Source: Bacteroides sp. (lineage in GTDB: Bacteria > Bacillota > Clostridia > Lachnospirales > Lachnospiraceae). Taken from it: a DNA stretch of 64,000 nucleotides. Shown in pieces: positions 342 to 62,239 of this stretch. The stretch is from positions 62,001 through 126,000 of the forward strand of contig JAMPBO010000005.1 of NCBI GenBank assembly GCA_023666705.1, read 5' to 3'. Under the pieces are notes generated by a model. The model was not told where the DNA came from. It searched no databases and saw only the letters and a list, made by a program, of their open reading frames with translations. The translations under genes were made by a program, and so were the position numbers. Numbering within the stretch: the stretch's first letter is position 1; every line of letters starts with the position of its first letter.

Positions 342-1730
342 ATGGAAAAGACAATGGAAAAAATAGTTTCACTCGCTAAATCAAGAGGCTTCATATACCC
401 GGGGTCAGAGATTTACGGAGGTTTAGCAAATACATGGGACTACGGAAATTTAGGTGTTGAATTTAAAAACAACGTAAAAAAAGCATGGTGGAAGAAATTT
501 ATACAGGAAAATCCTTACAACGTAGGCGTTGACTGTGCCATACTGATGAATCCGCAGACATGGGTTGCTTCGGGACATGTTGGGAGCTTTTCTGACCCGC
601 TGATAGACTGTAAGGAATGTCACGAGAGATTTCGGGCTGACAAGATTATAGAGGACTTTATGCAGGAAAACGGCATTGCCTTAGAGGGCAGCGTTGACGC
701 ATGGTCCAAGGATGACATGGTAAATTTTATTGAGGAAAAGAATGTGTGCTGTCCAAGCTGCGGCAAGCACAATTTCACGGATATAAGAGAATTTAACCTA
801 ATGTTTAAGACATTTCAGGGCGTCACTGAGGATTCCTCAGCTACATTATATTTGAGACCAGAGACGGCACAGGGTATTTTTGTAAATTTCAAGAATGTTC
901 AGAGGACATCAAGAAAGAAAATACCATTTGGTATTGGACAGATTGGTAAATCATTTAGAAATGAAATTACGCCGGGTAACTTTACGTTCCGTACAAGAGA
1001 GTTTGAGCAGATGGAGCTTGAATTTTTCTGTGAGCCTGACACTGACCTTGAGTGGTTTCAATATTGGAAGGATTTTTGTATCAACTGGCTCAAGGAGCTT
1101 GGCATGAAGGAAGACGAGATGAGATACCGTGACCACGATAAGGAGGAGCTTTCCTTCTACAGTAAGGCGACAACGGATATTGAGTTTTTATTCCCATTTG
1201 GCTGGGGTGAGCTTTGGGGAATTGCCGACAGAACCGACTACGACCTTACCCAGCACCAGAACACCTCGAAGGAGCCGATGGATTACTTTGACGATGAGAA
1301 GAAGATAAAGTATGTTCCGTATGTAATAGAGCCGTCACTTGGAGCTGACCGTGTGACCCTTGCATTTCTTTGCTCGGCATATGACGAGGAGGAGCTTGAG
1401 GGTGGAGATATGAGAACTGTGCTTCATTTCCATCCGGCACTTGCCCCTGTGAAGATTGGTGTGCTTCCGCTTTCAAAGAAGCTGAATGAGGGTGCAGAGA
1501 AAATTTATACGGAGCTTTCCAAGTATTACAACTGTGAATTTGATGACAGGGGAAATATCGGAAAGCGATACAGAAGGCAGGACGAGATTGGAACGCCATT
1601 CTGCGTAACCTACGATTTTGACTCTGAGACAGACGGAGCAGTTACCGTAAGGGATAGAGATACGATGGAGCAGGAGCGGATAAAGATAGAGGACTTAAAG
1701 GCATATTTTGAGAAGAAGCTGTATTATTAA
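342..1730 (+). CDS. glyS: Glycyl-tRNA synthetase, single-chain (alpha2) type
   Basis: 462-residue class II aminoacyl-tRNA synthetase that charges tRNA-Gly in the cytoplasm. Class II motif 2 is seen in RPETAQGIF and [19 protein letters not shown], motif 3 in [14 protein letters not shown] Cys-rich insertion (CKECHERF, then CCPSCGKH) probably binds zinc. The C-terminal third is the anticodon-binding domain, with VYYN-like and [17 protein letters not shown] segments. Length matches the homodimeric family rather than the GlyQ/GlyS alpha2beta2 enzyme. The frame is open from TTG 306, but ATG 342 follows an AGAGGTG ribosome site and is preferred. The gene is followed by a strong terminator, so it ends the recO-side unit. 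Confidence 0.96.
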
Positions 1731-1759
1731 TAAATAAAGGGTTTTTGTTGAATAAAAAG

Positions 1760-1789
1760 GCATCCTAACTTGGTTAGGGTGCTATTTTT
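1760..1789 (+). terminator. Rho-independent terminator after glyS
   Basis: A 10-bp stem (1760-1769 with 1773-1782, one G-U pair) with a 3-nt loop is followed by TATTTTT. It lies 30 nt after the glyS stop and separates glyS from the ABC-transporter island. Confidence 0.9.
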
Positions 1790-1854: not shown

Positions 1855-1935
1855 TTGCAGGACATAAAGTTTGCCCCTGCAACTGGGACTATGCACTAAG
1901 GACTGGTACAATGAGCTTATTGACAATCGTCCTTA
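1855..1935. other. Gap between glyS terminator and ABC island with two inverted repeats
   Basis: The non-coding stretch of about 230 nt holds two short inverted repeats: TTGCAGG 1855-1861 with CCTGCAA 1876-1882, and TAAGGAC 1897-1903 with GTCCTTA 1929-1935. The second overlaps the -35 region of the promoter at 1920, so it could be an operator. No gene was recognised here. Function is inference only. Confidence 0.4.
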
Positions 1936-1949
1936 AGCAAATATACAAT
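1920..1949 (+). promoter_or_regulatory. Sigma-A-type promoter for first ABC operon
   Basis: TTGACA at 1920-1925, an 18-nt spacer and TACAAT at 1944-1949, about 75 nt upstream of the ATPase start. The -35 is a perfect consensus. An inverted repeat (1897-1903 with 1929-1935) brackets the -35. Confidence 0.6.
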
Positions 1950-2024
1950 GAAAGTGTAAAATCATAACAACAATTAAGTGTATTATGATACGGTATTATG
2001 AATGAAAGGAAAAGATGGAGTTAT

Positions 2025-2681
2025 ATGATAAAAATCAAAAACTTAAAAAAACAATACGGAACAGACAGTGCCGCATGCATTGCACTAAACAAAATAAACA
2101 TAGAGCTGCCTGAAAAAAAGTTTATTGCGATAACAGGAAAAAGCGGAAGTGGAAAAACAACGCTGTTAAACATGATAGGCTTAATCGACAAACCCGATTC
2201 CGGGGCTATCGAGGTAAACGGAACAGACATCTTAAAATATAACAAAAAGGAAATCAGGGAATACAGACGAAAAACCGTAGGCATTGTATTCCAGTTTTTT
2301 CAGCTCATCCCGGTGATTAACTGCTACGACAACATCGTAATCGCAAACGAATTTTCCCCCAAATATGAAAAAGAATATTTTGACGAATTAGTTGAACAAC
2401 TGGATATCGGAGATATATTAAACAAATACCCGGAGCAGCTTTCAGGCGGGCAGCAGCAGAGAATCGCCATTGCAAGGGCACTCATAAACCGTCCCAAAAT
2501 CATACTTGCCGATGAGCCGACGGGCAACCTGGATTCCGAAAACAGTGAAAACGTGGTCAGCCTGTTAAAAAGTGTGGTTACAAAGTATGACATGAGCCTG
2601 ATTATGGTAACCCACGACAGTGACATAGCAAAGGAAGCGGACCTCAATGTATGTCTGGTGGATGGAAAAGTACTGGTTTAG
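2025..2681 (+). CDS. ABC transporter ATP-binding protein, MacB/LolD/FtsE type
   Basis: 218-residue cytoplasmic ATPase that should power the FtsX-type permease encoded just downstream. Walker A GKSGSGKTT at residues 38-46, signature LSGGQQQR at 139-146, Walker B IILADEP at 159-165, D-loop GNLD and H-loop THD at 196-198 are all intact. This subclass drives mechanotransmission transporters that export or remove peptides, lipoproteins or antibiotics at the membrane surface. ATG 2025 is chosen because GGAG lies just before it and MIKIKNLKKQYG is the typical N-terminus; an in-frame ATG at 1998 has no ribosome site. It is the first gene of a unit with the large permease and a secreted protein. Substrate unknown. 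Confidence 0.93.
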   Translation: MIKIKNLKKQYGTDSAACIALNKINIELPEKKFIAITGKSGSGKTTLLNMIGLIDKPDSGAIEVNGTDILKYNKKEIREYRRKTVGIVFQFFQLIPVINCYDNIVIANEFSPKYEKEYFDELVEQLDIGDILNKYPEQLSGGQQQRIAIARALINRPKIILADEPTGNLDSENSENVVSLLKSVVTKYDMSLIMVTHDSDIAKEADLNVCLVDGKVLV

Positions 2682-2717
2682 GAATGGGATGATGTTCAAT
2701 AGAGGGAGTGGGAAAAT

Positions 2718-5105
2718 ATGACAATAAAATTAATAAAAGGCAACCTGAAGGGAAACATACAAAAGACAATCATCTCCATTATCGGCATCTGTATTTCGGT
2801 CATGCTCATATTCGTGGCGGTAAATACCTATGTATCCTTTCAAAAAATGCGTCTGGAAAATGCATACGATGCCTACGGGGAATACAACCTGCTGTTACAT
2901 GAGGTGGATAGGGGAACCTATGACTGGATCAGAAGCAGGTCTGACAGGTACACCCATGTGGGCGTTGAAAAAATCATCGGCATGACGGATTCACAGATCG
3001 GCATAGTGGAAAGCGGAAAAAATGCAACCGAAATGAACGGATACAGGCTGGTGGACGGAACATTTCCGGAGCAGGCAGGGGAGGTGGCAATCTCCGCTAC
3101 GGCAATAATTGGGGAAGAGTTTATAATCGGGAACTATAACGTGGGCGACAGCATTGAATTAAACGGCAGAAAATACAGCATCACCGGAATTCTGGATGAT
3201 TACGATTACAGTACGGCAGAAACCTATAAGGTGGCACTGACAAAAAGTGAAACGGAAACGGGCAGATATAACATATACCTGCATTGTGCAGGCAAAAGGG
3301 AATACCAGCGTGCCTTAAAGGAAATCAGACAGTATTTGCAGCTGGACGAAAGCAGTATCCTACACGGGGATAAGGAAGAGGGGTTTCTTTCCGGTTACAC
3401 ACTGATTATCAATGAGGAACTTAATATCGTGGAGCTGGAGGGGAAAGGAGGTCTGGATGATATCAATATCGGACGCCTGCTTCTGTTCTTTGCCGTCATC
3501 CTGGTACTGACATCCGTGATTTTGTCACTGCACCTGTTTACCTCCTATCTGCATGGCAGGAACAAACAGCAGGGAATCCTGCTCAGTCTCGGATTCTCCA
3601 ACCAGTATATTTCATGTATTTATTTTATGGAATGTCTGCTGCTGGTTGTGCTTGGCTGTCTGCTGGGAATTTTATTCGGACGGTATCTGACTGTATTTTT
3701 GTTTGAGCGTATCCAGAGCATGCGGACCAGCAGGCTGGAACATTTTGAACCGCAGTTTACGCAGCAGTCATATATGCTTGCAACTGCCGTAAGCTTTGCA
3801 GGCTTTCTCTGCGGACTTGTGCCTGTGCTGGTCCGGACCATGGATGCACATATCAATGAAATGATAAAGACCAGAAGAAAAAAATACCGTGGTACTGCGG
3901 CAGGCACGAAGAACCATGGGCATAAGTTTATTACAATGAAATATTTTCACAGGGACAGTTATCCGTTTGAAAAATTCTGCATTTACATGTCAATGGTCAT
4001 GATAGGGATTAGCGTGATGCTGCTGGTTTATGTAAATAAGTATGTGAATTACACGGTTTCCCACAGGGAGTATTATGACACGGAATTTGACCTGATATCA
4101 GATGACGTAAGTGGAATGGACGGGTTTGAAAAGCTGATACCGGGGGTGACATACTACGATATGGTTTATGATACCATGGGAGTTTTCCATGTGGGAAAAG
4201 ATAATATAAATGAAAATTGTAAGGAGTGGATTATGTATAAGGAGGATGATTCGGTATACTGTGAAATTGTGGGAGTAAGCGAACAACAGTACAACAATAA
4301 GATTGAGTCGGAATCGAGGATGACCTATGAGGAGTTTGTTGATGCGGGCGGTGCTATTGTCATTGACAATTATTTGACGGGGGATGAGCGGATTTTAAAG
4401 GAACTGCCGGAAACCTTAAAGTATGACGGAAGACAGGACTATGAATTTGGGATTGTGTATGAACCGGGAGAAGTAAAAATCATAGGGCGTGGAAAGTTTA
4501 AAAACTGGAATGACCAAATGGGTATATCCATCATTGTCCCTGATAAAATGTTTCAGGAAAAATTTGATTATACAAATGTACTGATAAAGATAAACGTGGA
4601 GGATGGATATGAAATTGAAGCGGCGGAAATGCTGCATCAGTGTTCATTTAAATATAACTATTCCTTTCATGACCATGTGACGGAATATATCAAGGAGCAG
4701 GATAACAACATGACAATCCATGCATATACTTATGGAGTCCTGTTGTTTGTAACAGTTATGAATCTGTTTATCATTGTGTATGTAAACGGTCTAGTGTATG
4801 TGCGGAGGAGAAGGAACCTGTCGGTACTGAAAATCCTGGGACATTCGGATATGAGTATTATGCTGCCCCTGATATTGGAGGCACTGGCTGAAAGTATCGT
4901 TGCCGCCATACTGTCGGTATTTATCAGTAAGGTTGCGTCAAAACGGCTGCTTCCGCCAGTGACGCAAAGTGTAATCCTTACGGGCGGGGCACAAAGCATC
5001 CTGTATGTACTGTTGTTTTTGCTTGTGATGCAGGCGATAGCGGTAGTGGTGATATTTATGCGGGTACGGAAGCAACGGATAATATATGATTTAAGAGAAT
5101 CATGA
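2718..5105 (+). CDS. Large FtsX-family ABC permease (tandem, about 8 TM)
   Basis: 795-residue membrane protein. It has TM1 about 17-40, an extracytoplasmic domain to about 250, three TM segments about 252-375, TM5 about 420-440, a second extracytoplasmic domain of about 220 residues, and three C-terminal TM segments about 672-782. This is two MacB/FtsX units (1+3 TM each) fused in one chain, as in large permeases tied to bacteriocin immunity or antimicrobial-peptide resistance. It starts 36 nt after the ATPase with a GAGGGAG ribosome site and is followed 21 nt later by a signal-peptide protein. Partnership with the upstream ATPase is a strong inference; the substrate is not known, and the downstream secreted protein is the obvious candidate. 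It lacks the usual BceB two-component-system neighbours. Confidence 0.88.
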   Translation: MTIKLIKGNLKGNIQKTIISIIGICISVMLIFVAVNTYVSFQKMRLENAYDAYGEYNLLLHEVDRGTYDWIRSRSDRYTHVGVEKIIGMTDSQIGIVESGKNATEMNGYRLVDGTFPEQAGEVAISATAIIGEEFIIGNYNVGDSIELNGRKYSITGILDDYDYSTAETYKVALTKSETETGRYNIYLHCAGKREYQRALKEIRQYLQLDESSILHGDKEEGFLSGYTLIINEELNIVELEGKGGLDDINIGRLLLFFAVILVLTSVILSLHLFTSYLHGRNKQQGILLSLGFSNQYISCIYFMECLLLVVLGCLLGILFGRYLTVFLFERIQSMRTSRLEHFEPQFTQQSYMLATAVSFAGFLCGLVPVLVRTMDAHINEMIKTRRKKYRGTAAGTKNHGHKFITMKYFHRDSYPFEKFCIYMSMVMIGISVMLLVYVNKYVNYTVSHREYYDTEFDLISDDVSGMDGFEKLIPGVTYYDMVYDTMGVFHVGKDNINENCKEWIMYKEDDSVYCEIVGVSEQQYNNKIESESRMTYEEFVDAGGAIVIDNYLTGDERILKELPETLKYDGRQDYEFGIVYEPGEVKIIGRGKFKNWNDQMGISIIVPDKMFQEKFDYTNVLIKINVEDGYEIEAAEMLHQCSFKYNYSFHDHVTEYIKEQDNNMTIHAYTYGVLLFVTVMNLFIIVYVNGLVYVRRRRNLSVLKILGHSDMSIMLPLILEALAESIVAAILSVFISKVASKRLLPPVTQSVILTGGAQSILYVLLFLLVMQAIAVVVIFMRVRKQRIIYDLRES

Positions 5106-5126
5106 TATATGAAGGGAGAGATAGGA

Positions 5127-5531
5127 ATGAAAGTAAAAACAAAGCTGGTGGCATTGATGCTTATGGCGGCTTATTGTATTGCACCCGGTAATACAGTAAC
5201 CGCAAATGCGGCATCAACTTCAAAGATAGTTGCCGTTCATGCCAATATTTGGACAGTTCATGGAATATATACGAAATCGTTTTCTTCAAAAACAGCAAAA
5301 GTCACAAACTATTCCGGGTATGGGGAATATGGATATTGTTATGGACAGGTTAGGGCTAATATAGGAGGTTGGGGTACATATTCTCAAAATTACAAATTGT
5401 ATAAAAGCAATTCTGAAATAACCATGTATTTAACAAATACAATTGATGTAGGAAAACAAGTGAGTCTGAGGCTGATTGGTGCAGATTCACAGACAAAGGA
5501 TGATAATAATTTAATAAAGTTTAATTATTAG
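5127..5531 (+). CDS. Small secreted protein of unknown function, possible ABC-system substrate
   Basis: 134-residue protein with a clear Sec signal: basic MKVKTK, hydrophobic core, then TVTANA-A as a likely signal-peptidase I site near residue 28. The mature part (about 105 residues) is rich in Gly, Tyr, Ser and Asn and looks beta-stranded, with GYGEYGYCYG and one Cys. ATG 5127 is preferred over 5109 because a GGGAGAGATAGGA region lies just before it. It follows the 795-residue permease by 21 nt and is probably co-transcribed. Lactococcin-972-like bacteriocins are of similar style (small, Sec-exported, beta-rich, next to an ABC/FtsX pair), but I cannot show homology. It could instead be a sensor or adaptor for the transporter. 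Confidence 0.8.
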   Translation: MKVKTKLVALMLMAAYCIAPGNTVTANAASTSKIVAVHANIWTVHGIYTKSFSSKTAKVTNYSGYGEYGYCYGQVRANIGGWGTYSQNYKLYKSNSEITMYLTNTIDVGKQVSLRLIGADSQTKDDNNLIKFNY

Positions 5532-5837
5532 TTTTTTCAAATTGTTGTTTTGAATCAGAATTTTATTAAGTGACATGTAGATTAACAAGCATAAATTGGT
5601 TTGTATAATTTGCGTGTGGTGCCCAGAATAATAAAAAGTGGTACAAAATATCCAGGTGACTTATGGCGAAAATTGTCATATAATTTTATTATATGTAAGA
5701 TTGTGAAAATAGAATGCAAAATGTGTTATAAATTATGGCATTATAATCCAGATAGTTATGAGGGGATGATATAAAAATTATACAATGATAATTTGTAGAT
5801 ATATAATTCAAGGAAAATAAGGAAGGGGAAAATAAGC
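5532..5837. other. A+T-rich gap between the two ABC units
   Basis: About 306 nt, very A+T-rich. No convincing gene: the best short frame (around 5714-5773) is under 25 codons and lacks a ribosome site. A promoter is proposed at 5673-5701. No strong terminator was found after the first secreted-protein gene, so read-through from the first unit into the second is possible. Confidence 0.5.
5673..5701 (+). promoter_or_regulatory. Candidate promoter for second secreted-protein/ABC operon
   Basis: TTGTCA 5673-5678, 17-nt spacer, TAAGAT 5696-5701; each hexamer matches consensus at 5 of 6. It lies 136 nt upstream of the gene at 5838. Several other TATAAT-like runs exist in this A+T-rich stretch, so the choice is not certain. 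Confidence 0.45.
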
Positions 5838-6296
5838 ATGAAAATTAGAAAAATTGGAATTTCAATATGTTTATTGGCTATGGTGTTAGTATTTTGTGGA
5901 AATACCGTAGGAGCGAGAGCAATTTACAATGGCACCGCAAAGGTTAAGGTTACATCAAGGAATTTTATTCCTTTTGCGACAGATAAAGCAGAAGCATATT
6001 GCTATGCATGTGTTGAGGGAAATCGGTTTACAAATAGAAAAACAAATAGCCGCGTATCGGGAGAAGGGTACATATTTTATTATAGTCCGAAAATTAAAGG
6101 ATATACAACTTATAAATTTAATGGTTCAAAAACGATAACTAAATCAGGAGAAAAATTTGTTGTAATTGAAAGAACGGGAAAAAGTCTTGACCGTAAATAT
6201 AAAGATGTTTATGCAATGTCTATACACTGTGTATTTAAACTTAAATGTAATAAATGTGGGGCATGTGAAACACGTATAAGAAATGCTATAGAGTAA
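5838..6296 (+). CDS. Secreted cysteine-containing protein of unknown function
   Basis: 152-residue protein with a Sec signal (MKIRKIG, hydrophobic run, VGARA near residue 27). The mature part is strongly basic and beta-rich. It has six Cys: C55 and C58 (CYAC), and a C-terminal cluster C131, C137, C140, C143 ending in CNKCGAC. The spacing suggests a metal site or disulfides. The start has AAGGAAGGGG upstream. It is the first gene of a unit followed by two half-size FtsX permeases and an ABC ATPase. I do not recognise a family. By context it is a candidate exported effector or peptide, or an extracellular partner of the transporter. It shows no obvious similarity to the protein at 5127 beyond size and export signal. 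Confidence 0.82.
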   Translation: MKIRKIGISICLLAMVLVFCGNTVGARAIYNGTAKVKVTSRNFIPFATDKAEAYCYACVEGNRFTNRKTNSRVSGEGYIFYYSPKIKGYTTYKFNGSKTITKSGEKFVVIERTGKSLDRKYKDVYAMSIHCVFKLKCNKCGACETRIRNAIE

Positions 6297-6309
6297 AGGA
6301 TATTTAACG

Positions 6310-7470
6310 ATGAATTACATATATTTTTTATTACAAAAAAATAAAGAACGGTTTGGAACATTTGTTATGTATACCATATTGATTGGATTGTTTACGGCAT
6401 TCTTTGGATTTTCCTTAGGAGAGGTTAGCTATGAGCATCAAGGAGAAATGCTACTTAAGGACATGGAAAGTTGTTGTTACGTTATACCATATATTGATAA
6501 AAGTGCATTATATGATGAATATTCCTTTATTTCGGTAGATAAATTTCCAAAAAAGGACGATGTTGTATATGATGCAGGAGTTTTTAGATTTGATGAAATA
6601 TTTGGTGAAGATTATGGAGAAGTGATATCGTCATCGCAACTTTTTGCAACACATATAAACTGGAATTTATCAGAGGGTAAGGGTTTCACGGATAATCCCA
6701 ATGAGGTTATTTTATTGGGGAACAAAGGATTTTATCAAATTGGGGATATAATTAGTATTAAAAATATTGATGACGAAATTATTTGTCAATGTACGGTTGT
6801 TGGAATTAACAAATATCCAGTTTTTTTACGAAAACAAGGGGGCGGAGGATACGAATATGATAAGTATGATGATTTTAAAGTTTATATACCTTATATGGAT
6901 ATGATAGCCAACTATAGAAATGATATTTATGGAGAAACATTATTTTTAAACCCTAAGAATCCGCTTGCATATAATTATAATCCCCCAAATGTAAGTTATA
7001 TTTTTGCAGACGAACCGAATAACACAGAAGTATTTAATGAATTTACGGAATATGGACGGTTGGATTTAGTAAGCGATTTGCAAAATGAAAAAATCTCCTT
7101 TTGGGACAGGGACGAGTCCATACTTGAAATATGTCTTTTGATAATATTTATATGTGGTGTCATCGTGCATAATTACCTGACTATTGTTAGAAATCAACGG
7201 GAATATGGTATTTACTATATGCTTGGAATGAGCTGGTGCAAGCTTGTCGCTTTACTATCACTTCAGAATATTTTTGCTTTTGTATGCGGCTTTTTACTTG
7301 GAAGCTCGTTTGTTTACCGTGCATCATTCAAGCAGGATATATTGTTCATATGGAAAAACCAGCTTGGGATTCTTGCAGGAGTTTTAGGGATTTACCTGAT
7401 ATCCATTGTGCCGATTTTACTGAAAATGAGAAAGCTGGACCCTGTCACGTTACTGATAAAAGAGGAGTAG
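6310..7470 (+). CDS. FtsX-family ABC permease, half-size (first subunit)
   Basis: 386-residue membrane protein with TM1 about 15-37, an extracytoplasmic domain to about 270, and three C-terminal TM segments (about 275-297, 312-338, 350-372), the 1+3 layout of MacB/FtsX permeases. The last cytoplasmic stretch KMRKLDPVTLLIKEE is the kind of coupling tail seen in this family. It starts 13 nt after the secreted Cys protein and is followed directly by a second half-size permease, so the two probably form a heterodimer served by the ATPase at 8485. Sequence identity to known families is low to the eye; the assignment rests on topology and context. Confidence 0.8.
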   Translation: MNYIYFLLQKNKERFGTFVMYTILIGLFTAFFGFSLGEVSYEHQGEMLLKDMESCCYVIPYIDKSALYDEYSFISVDKFPKKDDVVYDAGVFRFDEIFGEDYGEVISSSQLFATHINWNLSEGKGFTDNPNEVILLGNKGFYQIGDIISIKNIDDEIICQCTVVGINKYPVFLRKQGGGGYEYDKYDDFKVYIPYMDMIANYRNDIYGETLFLNPKNPLAYNYNPPNVSYIFADEPNNTEVFNEFTEYGRLDLVSDLQNEKISFWDRDESILEICLLIIFICGVIVHNYLTIVRNQREYGIYYMLGMSWCKLVALLSLQNIFAFVCGFLLGSSFVYRASFKQDILFIWKNQLGILAGVLGIYLISIVPILLKMRKLDPVTLLIKEE

Positions 7471-7471
7471 T

Positions 7472-8488
7472 ATGAGAAAAATTTTGATAGAAAGCATAAA
7501 GCATTACAGAAAATTGATGATTGCATGTATTATAGTCACCATGCTTGTCTATGGTGCAACACAGGTGATGCTTACATATTATTATCATGATATTATATCG
7601 AATCAGGACGAAGCAAGATACAATCAATGCGAAATTTCTATTGCAGAGCCGATAACAGTTGATATGCTGTCATGGGTTGAACCCTTTTGTACAGAAAATA
7701 TATCGGATTATGAGATGGCAGCATATGTTGTGGATGAGATGGATGGAATGTATGTAATTGCCGTAAAATCGGGAGACGAAGCAAAGATTTGCAAGGATGC
7801 GAAGGCACTGGAAGCTGGTGAGGCAATTGTTATGTCCTATTTTTTGCCGATATTTGAAGCAAAATACAGTGGTTATAGGTGTATTGAGACGTCAAGTGTT
7901 ATGGTATGCGGGTGTACACCATTTTTTGTTGGAGCTGTTGTATCTGCAAAATCAGCAGAAACGATGTCTGTTGGGACTATGATTCTGGCATGCACAAGAC
8001 CGATGACACATAGTGACAAGAGCAAAATAAAAAAGGCATTTGAAGGAAGGAATATCGATTGTGACATAAGCTACATGACCGAGTTTAAATGGTTGTTGGA
8101 AAATGTGGGATTTTATAAGGCAACGGTTATACTTGGGCTGGGAATCGTCATTTTTGCATTGCTGTCAATCGGTATACTGGTAAGTTATATGATTCAGAAG
8201 CAGAAAAAAGAAATTATTGTATTTATGCTTTGTGGGGCAAATATAAAGCATCTGCAGCGGTTTTATATTGGCGAGTATATGATTATGCAGGTGATATCCT
8301 TGTTTTTAGGATGTGGAGATGCATTTATTCTGGTAAGATTCGTAGGGATATTTGAATTTCATACTGTGTATGTCCTGCCATTTATTTTCTGTATTATGAT
8401 TTCTGTATTTTGCGGATTGATGGGCGTAATCATGATTAACAGGTTGCTGAAAAAAGATATAAATACGCATTGGAGGAAGCTTGCATGA
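7472..8488 (+). CDS. FtsX-family ABC permease, half-size (second subunit)
   Basis: 338-residue membrane protein with the same 1+3 layout: TM1 about 14-38, an external domain of about 170 residues, then three TM segments at about 214-240, 262-290 and 298-325. It begins two bases after the previous gene, with GAGGAG as ribosome site inside the end of that gene, and overlaps the next gene by ATGA. Such coupling implies fixed stoichiometry of the two permeases and the ATPase. Mature-domain Cys are present (C59, C72 region). Its partner in the first unit is a single fused permease. Function inferred from topology and operon. Confidence 0.78.
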   Translation: MRKILIESIKHYRKLMIACIIVTMLVYGATQVMLTYYYHDIISNQDEARYNQCEISIAEPITVDMLSWVEPFCTENISDYEMAAYVVDEMDGMYVIAVKSGDEAKICKDAKALEAGEAIVMSYFLPIFEAKYSGYRCIETSSVMVCGCTPFFVGAVVSAKSAETMSVGTMILACTRPMTHSDKSKIKKAFEGRNIDCDISYMTEFKWLLENVGFYKATVILGLGIVIFALLSIGILVSYMIQKQKKEIIVFMLCGANIKHLQRFYIGEYMIMQVISLFLGCGDAFILVRFVGIFEFHTVYVLPFIFCIMISVFCGLMGVIMINRLLKKDINTHWRKLA

Positions 8489-9171
8489 CAATAGTAAAAA
8501 TGAACAAGGTCAGTAAAATATACAATAAGGGAAAAAAGAACCAGTTTCTGGCATTGAATGAAATTGATTTTAATGTTGAGGAAGGTGATATGATTGCCAT
8601 AAGGGGAAGTTCCGGGGCGGGAAAATCCACACTCCTTCATATCATGGGCTGTATGGATACGCAAACTTCAGGACATTATTATTTTTGTGGGGAGTATGTA
8701 AAGGATATGACCCAGCAGCAAAAGGCGGTAATCCGAAACAAAAAAATCGGATTTGTATTGCAGGATTTTGGGCTTTTGGAGTACCAGAGTGTTTTGGATG
8801 CCGTTTCACTGCCGTTGTTGTTTTCCAATGAAATACCTGTCAGCAAAATGAAAAAACACTGTTTGGAGTATTTGGCAGAGGTTGGACTTCAGGGATATGC
8901 CACAAAGTTGGTCAATGAGCTTTCAGGAGGAGAAAAACAGCGGGTTGCCATTGCAAGGGCGTTGGTAAATAATCCGTCACTTATTTTGGCAGATGAGCCG
9001 ACAGGGGCACTGGATGAAGAAAATGCACATAATGTAATGAAGCTTTTGCAAAAGCTGAATGAGGACGGAAAGACTGTGGTAATTGTAACCCATGATTCTG
9101 ATGTTGCAGGTATGTGTAAAACCCAAATTACAATGAAATATGGAGCGTTAAGAAGCGATGATGTAAAATAA
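8485..9171 (+). CDS. ABC transporter ATP-binding protein, MacB/LolD type
   Basis: 228-residue ATPase with Walker A GSSGAGKST (41-49), Q-loop in VLQDFGLLEY, signature LSGGEKQR (146-153), Walker B LILADEPT (166-173), GALD D-loop and THD H-loop. The start ATG 8485 overlaps the stop of the permease gene (ATGA) and has GGAGGA eight bases upstream; the TTG at 8470 is not needed. This is the energy subunit for the two half permeases. It resembles the ATPase at 2025 only at family level, so the two transporters look like separate acquisitions or old duplicates. It is followed by a promoter and a regulator gene. Confidence 0.93.
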   Translation: MTIVKMNKVSKIYNKGKKNQFLALNEIDFNVEEGDMIAIRGSSGAGKSTLLHIMGCMDTQTSGHYYFCGEYVKDMTQQQKAVIRNKKIGFVLQDFGLLEYQSVLDAVSLPLLFSNEIPVSKMKKHCLEYLAEVGLQGYATKLVNELSGGEKQRVAIARALVNNPSLILADEPTGALDEENAHNVMKLLQKLNEDGKTVVIVTHDSDVAGMCKTQITMKYGALRSDDVK

Positions 9172-9190
9172 GTTTTGTCTATATTGCATA

Positions 9191-9219
9191 ATGACAAAAT
9201 AAAAAATACGGTGTATACT
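9191..9219 (+). promoter_or_regulatory. Promoter for the XRE-family regulator
   Basis: ATGACA (5 of 6) at 9191-9196, a 17-nt spacer, TATACT at 9214-9219, about 68 nt before the GTG start at 9287. It lets the regulator be expressed apart from the ABC operon. Confidence 0.6.
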
Positions 9220-9286
9220 TTGTATCGTAATGGAAAGTTAATATATGGTTTGTCGTTAGATTCAACAAAAGAGGGGAGTGTTGTGA

Positions 9287-9499
9287 GTGTATGACAAGAT
9301 TGCCATCGGAAAGAGGCTGAAATCGCTACGGTGCATAAATGGAAAATCACAATATGAGGTGTCAGCAGCACTGGGAGTGTCGGTAGAAACAATCCGAAAG
9401 CTTGAGCAGGGGAGAAGAGGAATGTCAGTGGAGATATTAGATTTACTCAGGATCTATTATGATACGAAAATAGATTATATTGTGTACGGTGATAAATAA
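9287..9499 (+). CDS. Small Cro/C1-type (XRE) DNA-binding regulator
   Basis: 70-residue protein that is almost entirely one helix-turn-helix domain: IGKRLKSLRCINGKSQYEVS, then AALGVSVETIRKLEQGRRG, the usual five-helix Cro/C1 fold. The only start that fits is GTG 9287, with GAGGGGAG eight bases upstream; the ATG at 9291 is in another frame. It is the last gene of the accessory island, has its own promoter, and is closed by a terminator before the heat-shock operon. A role in controlling the two secreted-protein/ABC units is likely from position but not shown. Confidence 0.9.
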   Translation: MYDKIAIGKRLKSLRCINGKSQYEVSAALGVSVETIRKLEQGRRGMSVEILDLLRIYYDTKIDYIVYGDK

Positions 9500-9512: not shown

Positions 9513-9547
9513 GCTGTCTGTCCCAAAATTGGACGGACAGCTTTTTT
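9513..9547 (+). terminator. Terminator after the XRE regulator
   Basis: An 11-bp stem (9513-9523 with 9531-9541, one U-G pair), 7-nt loop, then TTTTTT. It insulates the island from the hrcA promoter. Confidence 0.93.
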
Positions 9548-9618: not shown

Positions 9619-9645
9619 TTAGCACTCAAATTAAATGAGTGCTAA
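9619..9645. promoter_or_regulatory. CIRCE operator (HrcA binding site)
   Basis: A perfect TTAGCACTC - 9 nt - GAGTGCTAA inverted repeat, the conserved CIRCE element bound by HrcA. It lies between the promoter and hrcA, so the operon should be autoregulated and induced by heat or misfolded protein through GroEL titration (known for the family). Confidence 0.98.
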
Positions 9646-61216: not shown

Positions 61217-62239
61217 ATGGCTGGAAATTCAGTAAATATGGAGGACATTACGGGAATACAGAAGGCGGCAGTTCTTCTTATCTGCCTCGGACCTGAGCGT
61301 TCGGCTACTGTATTCAAGCATTTAAGGGATGATGAAATCGAACAGCTGACGCTTGAAATTGCCAATACAAAGAGTGTATCACCGGATGTCAAGGACGCAG
61401 TTATGGATGAGTTCTACGAGGTGTGTCTGGCACAGAAATACATTGCAGAGGGTGGTATTACATATGCTAAGGAGCTTCTTGATAAGGCACTTGGCGAGGA
61501 TCGGGCAAAAGATGTCATCGGAAGACTTACTGCATCCCTGCAGGTACGACCGTTCGAGTTTGTCAGGAAGTCAGATGCCAGCCAGCTCCTTAACTTTATT
61601 CAGGATGAGCACCCGCAGACGATTGCACTTATCCTTTCTTATCTGCCTTCGGCACAGGCAGCCTCTGTTGTCAGTGCCCTTGCACCTGAAAAGCAGGCGG
61701 ATGTTGCAAAGAGAATTGCCATGATGGACAGAACAAGTCCGGATATTATAAAACAGGTAGAAAAGGTTTTGGAGAAGAAGCTTGCTTCTTTGGTCAATCA
61801 GGATTACACCATTGTTGGTGGTATCGATTCCATTGTCAGTATTCTTAATACGGTTGACAGAAGTACAGAAAAGCACATCATGGAGACCTTGGAAATCGAA
61901 GAACCGGAATTGGCAGACGATATCAGAAGAAAAATGTTCGTATTCGAGGACATTTTGCTGCTTGATAACCGTGCAATCCAGACTGTTTTGCGTGAGGTTG
62001 ACAACAACGAGCTTGCAGTTGCACTTAAAAATGCCAATGAGGATGTTAAACAGATTATATTTGATAACCTTTCCAGCCGTCTGTCAACGATGATTAAAGA
62101 GGATATGGAATTCATGGGTCCTGTCAAGCTTAAGGATGTTGAAGACGCACAGCAGAAGATTGTTAATATTATCAGAAAGCTTGAGGATTCAGGCGAAATC
62201 ATTATCTCACGTGGCGGAGGTGACGAGTTAGTTGTCTAA
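61217..62239 (+). CDS. fliG: Flagellar motor switch protein FliG
   Basis: 340 residues. N-domain GIQKAAVLLICLGPERSATVFKHL, middle EHPQTIALILSYL (the EHPQ motif), and the C-terminal torque helix DNRAIQTVLREVDNNELAVALKNA. Rotor protein contacting MotA and FliF. Six nt after fliF; fliH overlaps its end. Confidence 0.98.
   Translation: MAGNSVNMEDITGIQKAAVLLICLGPERSATVFKHLRDDEIEQLTLEIANTKSVSPDVKDAVMDEFYEVCLAQKYIAEGGITYAKELLDKALGEDRAKDVIGRLTASLQVRPFEFVRKSDASQLLNFIQDEHPQTIALILSYLPSAQAASVVSALAPEKQADVAKRIAMMDRTSPDIIKQVEKVLEKKLASLVNQDYTIVGGIDSIVSILNTVDRSTEKHIMETLEIEEPELADDIRRKMFVFEDILLLDNRAIQTVLREVDNNELAVALKNANEDVKQIIFDNLSSRLSTMIKEDMEFMGPVKLKDVEDAQQKIVNIIRKLEDSGEIIISRGGGDELVV

Follow-up and report, generated by a model that had tools for sequence, protein, structure and literature searches.

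Two secreted-protein/FtsX-type ABC units in tandem between housekeeping genes of a Lachnospiraceae genome: predicted bacteriocin-like antagonism cassettes

An island of eight genes, comprising two units that each combine a small secreted protein with an ATP-binding cassette (ABC) transporter of the FtsX type, lies in a 64,000-nucleotide stretch of a Lachnospiraceae genome of 2.86 Mb (the window: positions 62,001 to 126,000 of contig JAMPBO010000005.1, contig C27 in our numbering, GenBank assembly GCA_023666705.1, named Bacteroides sp.). We read each unit, with a probability of about 55%, as a predicted bacteriocin-like antagonism cassette in which a Sec-secreted protein is coupled to FtsX-type ABC self-immunity. 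All eight genes named in a preliminary description of the window, which had been drawn from the letters and the open reading frames (ORFs), were confirmed, coordinates included, and all lie on the plus strand.

Unit A consists of an ATPase of the LolD/FtsE/MacB type with an ABC_tran domain (2025..2681; 218 aa), a 795-aa permease with tandem FtsX domains and a MacB_PCD-like extracellular domain (2718..5105; FtsX 58.8 bits over two stretches, MacB_PCD 34.2 bits), and a 134-aa secreted protein, A_sp (5127..5531), with a Sec-type signal peptide and about 105 residues in its mature form. Unit B runs in the same direction and begins with its secreted protein, B_sp (5838..6296; 152 aa), which has a Sec-type signal peptide and a Cys-rich C-terminal part with a CxxC motif; two half-size FtsX-type permeases, B1 (6310..7470; 386 aa) and B2 (7472..8488; 338 aa), and an ABC_tran ATPase (8485..9171; 228 aa) follow. 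A 70-aa regulator of the XRE/HTH_3 family with a GTG start (9287..9499; ORF and domain match) completes the island. Signal peptides and membrane spans were called throughout by a crude home-made rule together with reading of the sequences. The ATPases of units A and B score 119.9 and 104.9 bits against ABC_tran, and the combination that marks the MacB/FtsX (type VII) transporters, an FtsX permease with a separate ABC ATPase, is present, permease A and B2 (34.0 bits) scoring over the FtsX cut-off of 25.5 bits and B1 (20.7 bits) under it. The gene content and order of both units, as first described, thus stand, as does the placing of the island between housekeeping genes: family matches identify a class-II tRNA synthetase, presumably glyS, on one side and HrcA, GrpE, and Hsp70 (dnaK) on the other. 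The island genes are real: ratios of nonsynonymous to synonymous substitution (dN/dS; Nei-Gojobori, four species compared) are low, in keeping with purifying selection, for the secreted proteins (A_sp 0.21, from one pair; B_sp 0.18-0.35), the permeases (0.11-0.24), and the ATPases (0.02-0.10); dS was unusable for three pairs (two for ATPase A, one for hrcA), and several of its values approach saturation.

A small protein with a Sec signal peptide is a feature of the lactococcin 972 systems, and both A_sp and B_sp have it under the home-made rule. Neither protein matched the lactococcin 972 family (PF09683, and TIGR01653, which we take to be the number of the corresponding model) in Pfam or NCBIfam at E <= 1, and neither matched any PDB sequence below E 0.6; membership of that family was rejected on these grounds, and no library searched gave a credible family match for either. 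The preliminary description had been unable to name the two proteins, and the profile and PDB searches leave them so; assignment to a known family outside transport, which would have spoken against its reading, was looked for and did not occur. Structure prediction, proposed at the same time, was carried as far as a model of each secreted protein: both models are all-beta and of low confidence (predicted local distance difference test, pLDDT, 57.5 for A_sp and 67.3 for B_sp), and Foldseek returned no match for either at E <= 0.001. Lactococcin 972 structures are absent among the fold matches shown, which proves nothing at such model quality.

Several other affiliations were tried and rejected. 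Kinship of A_sp with the secreted proteins of three related permease loci (L135, L141, and L143) was suggested by BLAST within a set of 31 sequences (the three A rows gave E 0.003, 0.001, and 0.22 against that of L141), and this weak signal was lost in profile comparison. Anti-phage defence was addressed with PADLOC on the six island proteins other than the ATPases; nine models matched, every one of them through the XRE gene, with HTH_VI the strongest (E 1e-8). Plasmid or viral carriage was also rejected: A_sp, B_sp, permease A, and B1 had no plasmid match, and A_sp and B_sp had no relative on a viral contig.

Both units are narrowly distributed. A_sp is matched in four of 37 genomes of the genus, its own included and with one match truncated, and B_sp in three; permease A was found in five (E <= 1e-40), a spread that may be understated in that one search scored at most two candidates per genome, and B1 in four (E <= 1e-6). 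The searches across the family covered samples of 299 or 397 genomes, two of the same genus being among those listed, and profiles of A_sp and B_sp each found only their own genome among the 397. The relatives are largely metagenome-assembled genomes, so assembly errors could account for the gene breaks described below in two of them (G036 and G004).

The site is bounded by glyS and hrcA in six species, and its content differs among them. Both units are present in the window genome (G000). G036 has unit A with an A_sp that is 75% identical, has no B_sp, and has B1 split into two ORFs. In G035 and G020, ATPase A and permease A stand without A_sp and are followed by a whole unit B; no recognisable remnant of A_sp lies between permease A and unit B in either. 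The G004 site (L088; G004:C38:11600-24000, reverse strand) holds no ABC genes; on the reverse strand it carries the orthologous XRE gene (1301-1531), a membrane-anchored protein of 421 aa (1648-2910), and a different secreted protein of 126 aa (3004-3381). The island can be absent altogether, for in the related species G003 (L089) 262 bases separate glyS from hrcA. Elsewhere in the genus hrcA has other surroundings: glyS lies within 1.5 kb upstream at one of 30 hrcA loci examined, that of G003.

The gene histories across this region conflict. For glyS (window 342-1727), G000 and G020 differ by a dS of 0.27, and for hrcA by 2.1; for the genes of B2 and ATPase B (window 7472-9171), G035 and G020 differ by 0.29-0.34, while hrcA yielded no usable dS. 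These conflicting values suggest that pieces of the glyS-hrcA region have been exchanged between species.

Between G035 and G020, both of which lack A_sp at the site, permease A has a dN/dS of 0.16 and ATPase A one of 0.05, values that indicate purifying selection, part of which may predate the loss or gain of A_sp. The function of transporter A thus seems not to depend on an A_sp encoded next to it; G020 does hold an A_sp relative elsewhere in its genome, with an ABC transporter of its own. Because A_sp and B_sp carry Sec-type signal peptides, they can leave the cytoplasm without a special exporter. The original proposal of peptide or toxin "export/immunity" is accordingly divided by these data: retention of transporter A without A_sp favours immunity, and export becomes the weaker half, given that retention and the signal peptides. 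The same evidence bears on an explanation that we regard as unlikely, namely that the ABC complex is a dedicated release machine that pushes out a Sec-exported protein still attached to the membrane or wall, as MacAB-TolC is for Sec-exported enterotoxin. Selection on transporter A in the two species without A_sp argues against such a role, the island encodes no MacA/HlyD-type adaptor, and members of this family have no outer membrane to cross. A release function would fit the recurrent neighbourhood of secreted-protein and ABC genes, and the passages available on MacB-type transporters have them act on extracytoplasmic substrates (PMC5985334).

Unit B has counterparts beyond the site. A cassette on contig C12 of the same genome (L012) and one in another genus (G187, L123) match unit B in their four kinds of gene and in gene order. 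The mature B_sp profile scores 24.9 against that of the C12 and G187 secreted proteins, a value reached by none of 200 column shuffles (maximum 19.75); the hhalign probability is low for the mature proteins (16%) and 47% when the signal peptides are included. An upstream Cys and the two Cys of the C-terminal CxxC line up throughout the five sequences aligned, and B_sp looks like a distant relative of the C12 and G187 proteins. From the shared genes, their order, and the likeness to B_sp, unit B's kind is, as judged by these comparisons, a conserved module found in two genera. A permease profile of this kind (A4) matched three of 299 family genomes, the third of which, G329, has a 755-aa permease with an ATPase in another layout.

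The C12 and G187 cassettes are 41% identical in the secreted protein, 40% in the first permease, and 39% in the second. Such even divergence is what would be expected if the secreted protein belonged to the ABC complex as an accessory or sensing subunit outside the cell, the whole serving envelope upkeep or resistance to other peptides; PcsB-like proteins are partners of this sort for FtsEX. The G036 site, where B_sp is missing and B1 broken, would also fit. Against a subunit role stand the retention of transporter A without its partner, the quorum-sensing genes found beside some units, and the diversity of secreted proteins, mostly mutually unrelatable, that related transporters carry, and we judge it improbable.

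The pairing itself extends well beyond the window. Among 38 FtsX matches in 23 loci of the genome, inspection found a small non-lipoprotein Sec protein beside the ABC genes at five: units A and B and loci on contigs C12, C4, and C31. At the remaining loci, which were assessed by inspection only, no such protein was seen, the neighbours being lipoproteins, adaptor-like and two-component genes, and others. A profile of the C4/C31 half-permeases matched 33 of 299 family genomes, representing 33 of 298 genera with its own included; of the 44 match rows two are from the genome itself, and the other 42 fall in the 40 loci that we examined, where the arrangement secreted protein, permease, permease, ATPase is found repeatedly. 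With one automatic rule applied to all, a small Sec protein lies within 1 kb upstream at 16 of the 37 loci with upstream room (three of the 40 have none). The two control sets, long ORFs from other parts of the window and the remaining long ORFs of the permease loci, gave 0 of 28 and 5 of 49 (Fisher p 2e-5 and 5e-4, respectively). When downstream neighbours are also allowed, the counts are 17/37, 0/28, and 9/49 (p 9e-6 and 0.006). The rule errs both ways: the protein counted at L132 is membrane-anchored by reading, L135 is counted through the wrong ORF although a real one is present, and the secreted genes of L126, L127, L141, and L148 are missed upstream. By reading, 19 of the 40 loci have a secreted neighbour.

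The preliminary description had proposed a neighbourhood survey and held that its reading would suffer if these ABC genes occurred widely without a secreted neighbour. The outcome is mixed, 21 of the 37 loci being unpaired upstream by the automatic rule and transporter A standing without A_sp in two species. The unpaired loci would be expected if the ABC units were general peptide-resistance transporters and the secreted genes unrelated passengers; the enrichment of the pairing over controls, and the conservation of a secreted protein together with its permeases across genera, make that very improbable.

Many secreted families are carried on one kind of transporter. Twenty-seven of the secreted proteins were scanned, and lactococcin 972 is not among the families listed at E <= 0.1; 13 NCBIfam and 10 Pfam models each matched a single member at that level, the best being the BT3233 family (E 0.00025). 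In comparisons among 18 clusters of these proteins, five of 153 pairs scored above the best of 612 shuffled comparisons, the C4 protein with the C31 group being highest and A with B not above; mutual relationship of the clusters was rejected.

Some cassettes have further features. The secreted gene of the C31 cassette (L010:6590-7030) is frame-shifted near its start, while the two permeases and the ATPase are open, and this is possibly a second case of a transporter kept without its product, or a sequencing error. Membrane-anchored proteins of about 155-170 aa occur in several (L011:3143-3613; L127:5694-6197 and 6279-6782; L010:6108-6587); those of C4 and of L127, which has two copies, are related (E about 5e-7), and a second immunity or capture protein is a possible role. 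Two cassettes are followed downstream by small lipoproteins that are related to each other (E 2e-13; L142:2137-2526 and L156:7143-7532).

Genes of the Agr type accompany copies of unit A. A second type-A unit is intact in G020 (L026) and decayed in G004 (L027), where the permease is split and the secreted gene truncated. Directly upstream of both, and in the same direction, lies a gene for AgrB (PF04647, E 2e-31 and 1.1e-31), beyond which a GHKL kinase and a LytTR regulator are divergent from it. A gene for AgrD in the interval from agrB to the ATPase was rejected, none being recognised in the short stretches translated. Among the 40 permease loci, LytTR-type regulators occur in seven (L141, L135, L142, L129, L125, L145, and L128), a count that leaves out the weak match of L161 (E 9e-5); GHKL kinases are found in L141 and L135, and a protein with an AgrB-like motif in L142.

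A secreted antibacterial protein with ABC self-immunity is the simplest account of the pairing, the varied secreted proteins, the transporter kept alone, and the quorum-sensing neighbours. On that account, a Sec-type signal peptide would direct the small protein to secretion and be cut off, leaving outside the cell a beta-rich protein that would act at the envelope of neighbouring Gram-positive bacteria. The FtsX/MacB-type (type VII) ABC complex would remain in the producer's membrane, where ATP would drive work on the outer face, and would detach the protein from its target in the membrane or cell wall or drive it away. The producer, and any relative keeping only the transporter, would thereby be protected.

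A number of observations weigh against the antagonism-cassette reading. A_sp and B_sp match no bacteriocin model, and their low-confidence beta folds match nothing by Foldseek at E <= 0.001. A_sp may have been gained in G000 and G036 instead of lost in G035 and G020, and the joint absence of B_sp and breakage of B1 in G036 fit co-dependence as well as decay of a whole unit. The even divergence of secreted protein and permeases between C12 and G187 is as a subunit would show, the unpaired loci are numerous, and the same-locus control is not low once downstream neighbours are allowed.

A wider proposal, which we advance tentatively and put somewhat below even odds, is that the Lachnospiraceae of the gut harbour a large and so far undescribed class of beta-rich bacteriocins secreted through Sec, with toxins unrelated in sequence being swapped in and out beside one kind of FtsX-type immunity ABC transporter, often with two split half-permeases and sometimes with Agr/LytTR quorum sensing; both units would be members, and the glyS-hrcA site a spot of cargo exchange. 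If so, profile-based bacteriocin mining overlooks much of the secreted protein weaponry of a family dominant in the gut: no family model recognises the toxins, whereas the transporter chassis can be found. Transporters with and without the secreted gene would also provide natural test pairs, which address a question left open by the authors of the streptococcin B work, in the passages available, as to the role of the FtsX-like and ABC proteins in lactococcin 972-type clusters (PMC11796350).

The XRE gene is present at the glyS-hrcA site in five of the six species and is therefore its constant gene, the rest varying; it is kept with different cargo in G004. Its upstream region is promoter-like (consensus match at 9191..9219, plus strand) and similar in five species. 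Unit B has an upstream region of its own, and promoter-like sites, identified by consensus match only, precede unit A (1920..1949, plus strand; TTGACA-18-TACAAT, 11/12) and lie between the units (5582..5609, plus strand; TTAACA-16-TATAAT, 11/12). Of the regions searched, only those ahead of the XRE gene in G000 and G004 contain an exact TTGTC...GACAA repeat, and a shared operator was rejected; that the XRE protein regulates either unit, as in the preliminary description's idea of one small regulator, is a guess. Terminators had been described as framing the island, and stem searches do find 11-pair terminator-like stems before it (1759..1783) and at its end (9513..9541, plus strand); the numbers of terminator-like sites (8, against 6.0 +/- 2.9 in shuffles) and of promoter-like sites (41, against 34.6 +/- 6.7) do not clearly exceed chance. 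Before hrcA, at 9619-9645, is an inverted repeat, TTAGCACTC-9-GAGTGCTAA, that we take from its motif to be CIRCE-like, which would place the island's end just upstream of a heat-shock promoter.

Word searches of open-licence PMC full text returned no description of proteins like A_sp and B_sp or of the split-permease class, and the passages available from a 2026 survey of rumen bacteriocins mention neither (PMC13289728). Comparison with the lactococcin 972 clusters used NCBIfam models TIGR01654 (DUF1430, the multi-membrane-spanning protein; cut-off 189.35 bits) and TIGR03608 (the ATPase; cut-off 254.85 bits). Permease A and B2 do not match TIGR01654, and B1 reaches 11.3 bits (E 0.082); a paralogue in the C31 cassette, C31_p1, scores 29.5 bits (E 2.7e-7). 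ATPases A and B score 189.0 and 217.7 bits against TIGR03608, and the paralogous ATPases of C12, C4, and C31 score 215.0, 230.1, and 224.2 bits, so that units A and B fall below the cut-off. The best reading of these comparisons is that the units may work like lactococcin 972 and mediterrocin clusters and are not members by the lactococcin 972 models tested. The earlier statements that this type of ABC transporter accompanies lactococcin 972-like bacteriocins, and that two non-identical systems of secreted protein and FtsX-type ABC transporter stand in tandem, are upheld.

Mediterrocin and streptococcin B are the closest described systems that the comparison found. The mediterrocin cluster of Mediterraneibacter gnavus, also in the Lachnospiraceae, is in the passages available annotated to the lactococcin 972 family, and it brings together a small Sec-secreted protein with no reported modifications, a multi-membrane-spanning putative immunity protein with DUF1430 (MdcH), an ABC-domain protein (MdcI), and a regulator (PMC12345188). 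Units A and B share this general composition; in contrast, A_sp and B_sp have no credible family match, their permeases score under the TIGR01654 cut-off, and those of unit B are two and half-size. Mediterrocin is reported in many species (PMC12345188); matches of A_sp and B_sp are confined to a few species within a single genus. Streptococcin B of Streptococcus pneumoniae (scbABC) likewise joins a secreted bacteriocin to predicted immunity and transporter proteins, and it has peptide-pheromone control, a feature that the units described here may share; it differs in being lactococcin 972-like by sequence and controlled by competence (PMC11796350, as far as its available passages go). Its scbBC genes are encoded without the bacteriocin in 157 of 571 pneumococcal genomes, an "orphan immunity" pattern that transporter A without A_sp resembles (PMC11796350). 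Type VII transporters of the MacB/BceAB type, such as YknXYZ and BceAB, resemble units A and B in having an FtsX-type permease with an extracellular domain and a separate ATPase and in protection from extracellular peptides, which for units A and B is predicted; according to the passages available, MacB-type complexes work outside the membrane on extracytoplasmic substrates and carry nothing across their own membrane (PMC5985334). Units A and B differ from these in that the eight island proteins scanned include no YknX/MacA-type (MacA/HlyD) adaptor and no kinase or response regulator of the kind that goes with the single BceB-size permease of BceAB modules, and in that each unit has a secreted protein of its own.

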